Source: a candidate division NC10 bacterium CSP1-5 (lineage in GTDB: Bacteria > Methylomirabilota > Methylomirabilia > Methylomirabilales > CSP1-5). Taken from it: a DNA stretch of 64,000 nt. The notes below the pieces were generated by a model. The model ran no database searches and was not told the origin of the DNA. It saw nothing but the letters and a program-made list of their open reading frames with translations. The position numbers and the translations under genes were made by a program. The stretch lies in NCBI GenBank assembly GCA_001443495.1, contig LDXR01000012.1:1-64000 (forward strand). Reading direction: 5' to 3'. Below are positions 26,954 through 29,462 of the stretch, in pieces. The stretch's first letter is position 1. Every line of letters starts with the position of its first letter.

Positions 26954-27637
26954 ATGCGAGACACGGTGACATGGGTAGTACTCCTTGTGGCCTGTACAGT
27001 CGTGGGTGTCCTGGGGTACCGGTACTACAAGGCTACCGAGCAGATCGCCCAGCTCACCGAGAAGACGACTCGGCTCACGGCAGAGATCGAGGGCGTCACC
27101 GAGGTCCATGAGCTCACCGAGGCAAAGCAGGCGAAGGAGGCCAAGAAGGCCGCGGAGACCCGAGAGAAGCTCACGGGTGAGGTGCAGGGCCTGCAGAAGG
27201 AATTGGCCAAGACCCGCCAGGAACGAGAGACATTGAAGACCCAGGTCGCCACGCTCCAGGGCGAGTCCAAGAAACTGCAGGGGAACTTCAAGGCCCTTCA
27301 GGGGGAGAAGGAGAAGCTGGATCGCCGACTGGAGAGTGTCGAGCGGACGCTCAAGGATCGGGAGGCAAAGCTTCAGGAGCTGGACAAGGCGCGGCGGGCG
27401 GATCAGGAAGCTCTGCGCACGTGGCAGGGGACCGGTCAGCGATTGATGGAAGAGCAGAAGAAGCTCCAGACCGAACTCCGGGCCCGCGAGGAGGAGGTCA
27501 AGCGGGTCAATCTGCTCCAGGCGGAACGGGCCGCAGAGGTCCACGAACTCACCCAGGCCCTCAAGGAACGGGAAGAGCGCATCGCAGCGCTCCGGCGCCA
27601 AGTCCGGGACCTCGAGACGCGCCCAACCGTGCGGTAA
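26954..27637 (+). CDS. membrane-anchored long coiled-coil protein
   Basis: The 227-residue protein has one N-terminal membrane helix (VTWVVLLVACTVVGVLGYRYY, residues 5-25) and about 195 residues of near-continuous coiled coil with repeated Glu-Lys-Leu heptads. Most of it would lie on the far side of the inner membrane. The function is unknown, and structural or spacer roles are typical of such proteins. GGAGGAGC before the ATG provides the ribosome-binding site. It is followed 60 bp later by the seleno-DsbA gene. Confidence 0.85.
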   Translation: MRDTVTWVVLLVACTVVGVLGYRYYKATEQIAQLTEKTTRLTAEIEGVTEVHELTEAKQAKEAKKAAETREKLTGEVQGLQKELAKTRQERETLKTQVATLQGESKKLQGNFKALQGEKEKLDRRLESVERTLKDREAKLQELDKARRADQEALRTWQGTGQRLMEEQKKLQTELRAREEEVKRVNLLQAERAAEVHELTQALKEREERIAALRRQVRDLETRPTVR

Positions 27638-27697
27638 CGTCCTCGGGTATCCCTTGCCGAAACGCCCTGCGACCGCTCCGCAGCGCGAGAACGGTCC

Positions 27698-28288
27698 GTG
27701 TCGATTCTGGTGGTTTTCGATTATCTCTGACCCTGGTGCTTCGTGGCCGAGGTGCGGCTCGACGCTGTCCTGACACGCCTCGCCCGGCGGCTGCCCATCC
27801 GGCGAGTCGGCTATATCCTCAAACCTGAAGCCCCCGCTTACCCCAGCTTCTCCAGCGAGCGTCGGGGCCACTGGCAGAGGGCTGCGGCGACGGAGCCCTC
27901 CCTGGGGATCCGTCTCTGGGTGAAGGGCGAGCGGTATCCCGGGTCAAGCGTTCCGGCGCTCGAGGCCGCTCAGGCGGCCAGGCGTCAGGGAGCCGATGCC
28001 TCGGAGGCCTTCCACTTCGGCGTCTTTCGCGCCTTCCTGGTTGAAAACCGCGATATCAGCGACCGGACCGTCCTGGAAGAGGTCGCGCTGAGCTGTGGTC
28101 TTGATCTTCACCGCTTCAGGGTCGACCTCAAAGACCCCACGGTGAAGGAGACGGTCTACGCAGAGCATCTCGAGGCGGTGGACCGGTACCACGTTGAAGC
28201 GGTCCCGACGATCGTCATTGGCGAGGAGCGCATAGAGGGGGCCGCGCCTCCGGCGATCTACCAGGCCGCCCTGGCTGGTCTGGTCTAG
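27698..28288 (+). CDS. DsbA-like thioredoxin-fold selenoprotein (UPWC active site)
   Basis: A 196-residue DsbA/FrnE-family frame starts with GTG at 27698 and contains TGA at 27728-27730 as codon 11. Reading through gives SILVVFDYL-U-PWCFVAEVRL, which lines up exactly with the family's N-terminal strand and CPWC active site, with selenocysteine in place of the first Cys. The remainder has the helical insert (ALEAAQAARRQGADASEAFH) and the cis-Pro loop EAVPTIVIG near residue 166. Without UGA decoding the protein would begin after its active site, which makes no sense. No signal peptide is present, so it is a cytoplasmic FrnE-like protein. The Shine-Dalgarno is weak. Confidence 0.87.
27736..27755 (+). 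promoter_or_regulatory. candidate SECIS element
   Basis: GUGCUUC (27736-27742) can pair with GAGGUGC (27749-27755) in seven pairs, three of them U-G or G-U, around the loop GUGGCC (27743-27748). The loop begins 12 nt after the UGA and starts with GU, the feature known to matter in bacterial SECIS apical loops. Confidence 0.6.
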
Positions 28289-28382
28289 TGGGTGGCTCCG
28301 CATATTTTCATTTGAGCGCAAGAATCGGATGGTGTGCCTCCTGAGGGCTGACTATCTTTACCCGCAGGAGGTGACACGCGCG

Positions 28383-29462
28383 ATGAAGAAGACTGAGCTG
28401 AAAGCCTATGCGACCGACGGGGCCCGCTGGGAGGCTGTCGTGTCCCGTGATCCGGCCGCGGACGGTGCCTTCTATTACGCGGTGCGATCGACTGGCGTTT
28501 ACTGCCGTCCTACCTGCCCGTCGCGACGCCCCTTGCGTGCGCACGTCGCGTTCTTTGAGGACATCGACTCAGCAGAGCAAGCCAACTTCCGGCCCTGTCT
28601 GCGCTGCCGCCCAAAGGAGGTCAGCCCCCAGCAACGGGTGGTCGCGCACATACTGCAGCTGCTAGATACCGTGGAGGTGCCCCCCTCGCTCGCCGAACTC
28701 AGTGAGAGGATGGGCCTCAGCTCCTCTCACCTCCAGCGCGTGTTCAGGCGCGCCACCGGCCTGAGCCCCAAGCAGTACGCGGCTGCGCAGTGTCTCCAGC
28801 GCTTCAAGGCGGGGCTCAAGCAGGGGCGCAGCGTGACCGGGGCGATGTACGACGCCGGTTACGGATCCAGCCGTGGACTGTACGAGAAAGCGAGCCAGCA
28901 ACTCGGCATGGCGCCCGGAGCGTACAAACGCGGTGGCAAGGCTGAACAGATCGTATACACCCTGGCGGATAGTCCGATCGGTCGGATGCTTGTCGCTGCC
29001 ACAACGCGTGGGGTATGCGCGGTGTACTTCGGCGAGGACGCGGCGCTCGTGCAGGAGCTGCGCGCAGAATACCCGCGGGCCGTCCTCGTTCGCGCGGATG
29101 CCAGGCTCCGGTCGACCGTGAACGCCATTCGGGATCATGTGGGGCACTCCGGGCCACGGCGCCTCGACCTGCCGATCGACGTGCAGGCGACAGCCTTCCA
29201 GTCGCGGGTGTGGGACGCCCTGCGCAAGATTCCGTACGGACAGACCCGCTCGTATGCTCAAATCGCCGAGGCGATCGGGGAGCCTCGAGCCGCGCGGGCC
29301 GTGGCGCGAGCCTGTGCGACGAACCCGGTCGCCGTGGTGGTGCCGTGCCATCGCGTCGTGAGATCGGATGGGAAGCTCGGCGGCTACCGGTGGGGTGTGC
29401 AGCGCAAGCGCGTCGTGCTGGACAGGGAACGCGAGCACGCCGAGGCGCGGTCGGCGGACTGA
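28383..29462 (+). CDS. ada: bifunctional Ada: DNA phosphotriester repair/AraC regulator and O6-methylguanine methyltransferase
   Basis: The 359-residue protein carries the three Ada parts. The N-terminal zinc domain has CRPTCPSR near residue 41 and CLRCRP near 69, with the methyl-accepting Cys. An AraC-type HTH covers about 85-185. The C-terminal methyltransferase has the active site PCHRV near residue 326. Ada removes methyl groups from DNA and activates alkylation-response genes. ATG 28383 has AGGAGGTGA at the right distance. It is alone after the seleno-DsbA gene. Confidence 0.96.
   Translation: MKKTELKAYATDGARWEAVVSRDPAADGAFYYAVRSTGVYCRPTCPSRRPLRAHVAFFEDIDSAEQANFRPCLRCRPKEVSPQQRVVAHILQLLDTVEVPPSLAELSERMGLSSSHLQRVFRRATGLSPKQYAAAQCLQRFKAGLKQGRSVTGAMYDAGYGSSRGLYEKASQQLGMAPGAYKRGGKAEQIVYTLADSPIGRMLVAATTRGVCAVYFGEDAALVQELRAEYPRAVLVRADARLRSTVNAIRDHVGHSGPRRLDLPIDVQATAFQSRVWDALRKIPYGQTRSYAQIAEAIGEPRAARAVARACATNPVAVVVPCHRVVRSDGKLGGYRWGVQRKRVVLDREREHAEARSAD

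Follow-up and report, generated by a model that had tools for sequence, protein, structure and literature searches.

A gene on the forward strand of the window, the whole 64-kb stretch of DNA analysed here, is predicted to encode a cytosolic DsbA-like thiol-disulfide oxidoreductase of the FrnE/DsbM type in which the nucleophilic first residue of the active site is selenocysteine (Sec), a reading to which we give a probability of roughly 0.94. Sec would be inserted at residue 11, where the frame contains a UGA codon. The gene is a clear additional member of an established kind of selenoprotein. DsbA-like selenoproteins with a UxxC motif have been listed since 2005 (Zhang, Fomenko and Gladyshev; PMC1088965) and recur in later surveys (PMC2398784, PMC5029168, PMC13188914), and Methylomirabilota have been reported to be rich in selenoproteins, with 63 predicted in a single MAG (PMC13188914). 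The extent of the UPWC family in Methylomirabilota and the excess of Sec forms over Cys forms within it seem to be undescribed in the literature searched; the search returned no paper joining FrnE with DsbA-like selenoproteins and no relevant paper on the protein motif UPWC, and only a 2026 review connects Methylomirabilota with selenoproteins.

Reading frame, domain and predicted activity

From position 27698 the sequence reads GTG TCG ATT CTG GTG GTT TTC GAT TAT CTC TGA CCC TGG TGC, and re-reading it confirmed the observation of an earlier note that in this frame the TGA lies directly before CCC TGG TGC. This TGA (codon 11) is the only one in the frame, which is open afterwards to the TAG at 28286-28288, and with UGA decoded as Sec the product would begin MSILVVFDYL-UPWC-FVAEVRL (Table 1). 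No ATG, GTG or TTG lies in frame between the TAA at 27635 and position 27698, which leaves 27698 as the only common start; in L018, an orthologue from the same genus, the equivalent position is occupied by Met. Calling with translation table 11 gives an ORF of 181 aa from GTG 27743 in which the active site is lost, in agreement with the earlier note's expectation for a caller that treats UGA as a stop. A crude filter based on redox motifs and GC3 passes few in-frame TGAs of the window. Of these, only the TGA at codon 11 could be placed in a recognisable UxxC redox site belonging to a matching domain; the others were judged by eye. Downstream of the selenoprotein gene there is an Ada gene in some same-genus genomes, and a convergent TPR gene lies directly next to it in others.

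Table 1. Coordinates of the gene, its active site and associated features in the window.
Feature	Position	Strand	Basis or remarks
Coiled-coil protein gene, upstream neighbour	26954..27637	+	Adjoins the selenoprotein gene, on the same strand, in same-genus genomes covering that stretch
Predicted DsbA/FrnE-like selenoprotein gene (196 residues, GTG start, TAG stop, one in-frame UGA)	27698..28288	+	Frame, Pfam, orthologues
Putative UPWC active site (TGA CCC TGG TGC)	27728..27739	+	Aligned with CPWC in 6 Cys forms and UPWC in 51 Sec forms
Predicted Sec11 (TGA)	27728..27730	+	
Predicted resolving Cys14	27737..27739	+	
Candidate bacterial SECIS hairpin (stem GGCCG/CGGCU at 27745-27749/27755-27759, 5-nt loop AGGUG, 19 nt past the UGA)	27741..27762	+	MFE -13.7
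Truncated ORF that a UGA-as-stop caller would give; not the real start	27743..28288	+	
Loop E-A-V-P-T with Pro170	28196..28210	+	P170 invariant in the family alignment

The predicted product matches Pfam DSBA over residues 3-192 (profile positions 2-190 of 191; 69.4 bits against a curated cut-off of 25.6) in an alignment that is unbroken at the TGA, which bears out the claim that the two sides of the TGA form one DsbA-like domain. An AlphaFold model built from an 18-row alignment (pLDDT 92.7, pTM 0.90) places residue 11 directly before a helix of residues 12-27, and this confident model suggests that residue 11 occupies the place of the DsbA nucleophile at the N-terminus of helix 1. The features of the DsbA superfamily are found together, namely a thioredoxin fold with a helical insert, an active-site motif at the N-terminus of helix 1 and a conserved proline before the third strand; Pro170 is the probable counterpart of the cis-proline located opposite the active site in DsbA and thioredoxin folds. 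Because predicted strand 1 begins at residue 3 and there is no common start upstream, there is no room for a signal peptide, and the protein is likely to be cytosolic.

Near solved structures in a fold search included FrnE (TMq 0.86), YjbH (0.80) and DsbM (0.74), and FrnE had both the top query TM-score among the matches listed and the best named profile match (1.3e-18). Like FrnE of Deinococcus radiodurans (drFrnE; DR_0659; PDB 5cnw, 5xwh), the window protein has a CPWC-type motif and is predicted to be cytoplasmic, but drFrnE has Cys where Sec is predicted in the window protein, the two are only ∼20% identical over the structural alignment, and the C-terminal CXXXXC of drFrnE is absent from the window protein, which ends at residue 196 and contains no Cys past about residue 132. 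FrnE has been described as a disulfide reductase/isomerase of the cytoplasm with links to cadmium stress and oxidative stress, and the C-terminal CXXXXC, which is present in many FrnE proteins though not all, helps regeneration of drFrnE (PMC8945050). As this motif is missing, strict membership of FrnE is not claimed; of the label FrnE-like in the earlier note, the part that stands is that FrnE is the best named relative in both profile and fold, qualified by the low identity and the absent C-terminal motif. The top structural matches also include two DsbA-like folds (PDB 5hfi, 6ghb), those of Pseudomonas aeruginosa DsbM, which has been described as a disulfide reductase of the cytosol, and of Geobacillus YjbH, a partner of Spx; both are without Sec and neither beats FrnE in the sequence profile.

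By analogy with these proteins, thiol-disulfide oxidoreductase catalysis would proceed via Sec11 and Cys14. The Sec11 selenolate at the N-terminus of helix 1 would attack substrate disulfides or oxidised thiols, Cys14 would resolve the mixed selenenylsulfide to give a Sec-Cys bond, and a cellular reductant would then re-open that bond. Reduction is the likelier direction of the reaction, given what is described for drFrnE and DsbM. A different activity, glutathione-dependent isomerisation or transfer as in HCCA isomerase and kappa GST, would be compatible with Sec insertion, and both of these enzymes belong to the same fold superfamily and appeared among the fold matches (TMq 0.72-0.78). These enzymes, however, use a lone Ser at the active site, whereas a UxxC or CxxC pair is found in 59 of the 60 family copies and the last copy has UxWC with a shifted Sec; FrnE moreover outscores the isomerase/GST type in sequence as well as in fold, and we consider the glutathione-dependent activity improbable.

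Conservation of the TGA in Methylomirabilota

A scan of genome contigs with the single protein gave four loci, and a phylum-wide search was used instead. Homologues were found in 39 of 60 relatives, nearly all with exactly one TGA, and the family is carried by 66 of the 95 Methylomirabilota genomes searched; no relative was found in the viral contigs searched. The 60 distinct full-length copies comprise 51 with UPWC, two with UPYC, six with CPWC (TGC), which include the outgroup L012 from a deltaproteobacterium, and one with UCWC, and exactly one TGA, at the first active-site position, is present in 53. The TGA is at codon 11 in every same-genus orthologue compared (72-87% identity) and in the same column in most of the distant ones, and alignment of the homologues accordingly gave either Cys (TGC) or TGA at this codon. 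Close homologues do not have a stop or lack protein upstream of the UGA; in the same-genus orthologues the protein is conserved on both sides of it, with FDYL kept ahead. The proposal in the earlier note that the first Cys of CPWC is replaced by Sec is thus supported at the sequence level by a UGA opposite Cys and by a full set of Sec genes (see below). Within one close clade (L135-L142) Sec copies (L139-L142) and Cys copies (L135-L138 and L038) are intermixed, and the two residues therefore interchange at the active-site position.

The same distribution bears on the reading in which the TGA is a real stop or an error of sequencing or assembly, with the truncated ORF in use or the gene a pseudogene. 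Standard ORF calling does yield that ORF, and draft genomes can contain single-base errors, but the TGA recurs in all same-genus orthologues compared as well as across the family, the coding stretch FDYL ahead of it is conserved, the Cys forms have CPWC, and the truncated form would be without strand 1 and the active site. A pseudogene or sequencing error was rejected because the TGA is kept in 53 of 60 copies, and the whole reading is very improbable.

The source genome has a second UGA paralogue (C10:26553-27143), 40% identical to the window protein. In the source genome and same-genus relatives this second UPWC copy is located just after genes for a TonB-dependent receptor and TonB (L056:62-3653, G000:C10), and in family f3 it is close to a TonB gene, from which a metallo-beta-lactamase-fold gene separates it (L060:4-3844, G008:C56). 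A link between the second copy and the uptake of some metal or organo-element compound is possible. On the minus strand at L060:6746-7345 is a divergent copy with DVLUCWC, in which Sec is followed directly by Cys, in place of the usual YLUPWC.

Decoding of UGA and the candidate SECIS hairpin

The 2.77 Mb draft of the source genome is 99.7% complete and contains one tRNA-Sec above the Rfam cut-off (74.3 bits; ARAGORN anticodon tca), and profile searches of the same genome detected SelB (379 bits), SelA (600 bits) and SelD (405 bits), all above curated cut-offs; the selA, selB, selD and selC genes that the earlier note had named are all present. SelD has one internal TGA, in ALSHGAGUACKI (L052:1456-1620, G000:C13), where GAGUACK is the usual Sec site of SelD, and the SelD of the source genome is predicted to be a selenoprotein itself. 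At codon 11 of the window gene, tRNA-Sec (UCA) would decode the UGA after being charged via SelA, with SelD as the source of selenophosphate; SelB, attached to a hairpin immediately past the UGA, would deliver it.

Another residue would be inserted at codon 11 if UGA were reassigned genome-wide (to Trp or Gly) or decoded as Cys through a tRNA-Cys(UCA), and Cys is indeed the aligned residue in homologues, as such a tRNA would insert. Against this, of the window's 44 likely genes 18 terminate at TGA, the sole UCA anticodon among the 47 tRNAs scanned belongs to the canonical tRNA-Sec (tRNA-Cys has GCA and tRNA-Trp CCA), and SelA, SelB and SelD are complete in the source genome. Genome-wide reassignment and a tRNA-Cys(UCA) were both rejected because of the TGA stops and the tRNA scan, UGA being a normal stop with a Sec exception and not a reassigned codon, so that insertion of another residue is scarcely credible. 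That the UGA is mainly a selenium-responsive switch, read as Sec when selenium is plentiful and otherwise acting as a stop that leaves a short peptide, would draw on a competition between UGA and release factor that to our knowledge occurs in all known selenoprotein genes, but nothing resembling a regulated leader was seen and the protein past the UGA has been conserved as an enzyme, which makes such a role highly unlikely.

Of the 60 relatives, 49 have a tRNA-Sec that could be detected and 52 a detected SelA. Neither was found in three drafts that carry the UGA gene (G023, G039 and G058), all of them fragmented assemblies. In many members of family f7, to which G039 and G058 belong, the tRNA-Sec and SelA genes share a contig and are separated by ∼1-3 kb, so that the loss of a single contig would most simply account for the absence of both in such drafts. 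Beside a normal tRNA-Sec, three genomes (G020, G022 and G024) have an extra tRNA-Sec-like gene that is longer (98 bases, 54-58 bits), and in G034 a 98-base gene of this kind is the only one; it may represent either an allo-tRNA or a second tRNA-Sec.

The published model of the bacterial SECIS (bSECIS) specifies a loop of 3-9 nt, a stem of 4-16 bp, a G in the first two loop positions, a spacing of 16-37 nt and an MFE of -7.5 or lower (PMC13188914), and the window hairpin falls within these limits in loop, spacing and MFE (Table 1). In this GC-rich setting the loose rule is uninformative, since 62-80% of synonymous recodings pass it. Taken as a single sequence, the hairpin does not outperform dinucleotide shuffles (z 0.16), comparison with synonymous recodings gives p = 0.08-0.14, and the loose rule is passed by 79% of synonymous recodings. 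Over the family, the apical hairpin exceeds recodings in stability, with a mean z of -1.57 in the 53 Sec copies against -0.60 in the six Cys copies; for nine copies less than 60% identical, a Fisher p of 1e-4 was obtained, which is partly driven by one strongly paired paralogue group and is only a guide because the sequences are related. The hairpin is compatible with a SECIS, a function that the window sequence suggests weakly and the family modestly. Rfam covariance models run on 27500-28500 gave nothing above chance. Four distant UPWC paralogues (L144, L145, L148 and L149, from G062, G050, G065 and G040) have the hairpin CUCAGUAC-CGUGC-GUAUUGAG past the UGA, with a z of about -4, a much clearer SECIS candidate than that of the window.

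Relation to known selenoproteins and implications

The window protein resembles DsbA-like selenoprotein form 1 (PF01323) in its Pfam DSBA domain, in having a predicted Sec first in UxxC and in the candidate bacterial-type hairpin after the UGA, a likeness drawn from the published description of that form, whose reference sequence is NIP15863.1. Like form 1, it is lost by callers that treat UGA as a stop. It differs from form 1 in belonging to a clade spread through Methylomirabilota in which UPWC prevails and the ratio of Sec to Cys copies is 53 to 6.

Annotation of UGA as a stop strips the active site from a whole enzyme family in Methylomirabilota, a family whose hosts are mostly uncultured bacteria. 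The natural Sec/Cys pairs among close relatives (L135-L142) could be used to ask why Sec persists at the CPWC site. We tentatively put forward, as a possibility that falls well short of probable, that a FrnE-like family extends across the phylum Methylomirabilota and normally has Sec, which has survived several duplications and has seldom given way to Cys. The copies of this family may differ in role, with a TonB-adjacent lineage and the lineage of the window gene, the latter so far found in its own genus only. If this were true, a selenium-dependent cytosolic disulfide reductase would be central to Methylomirabilota.
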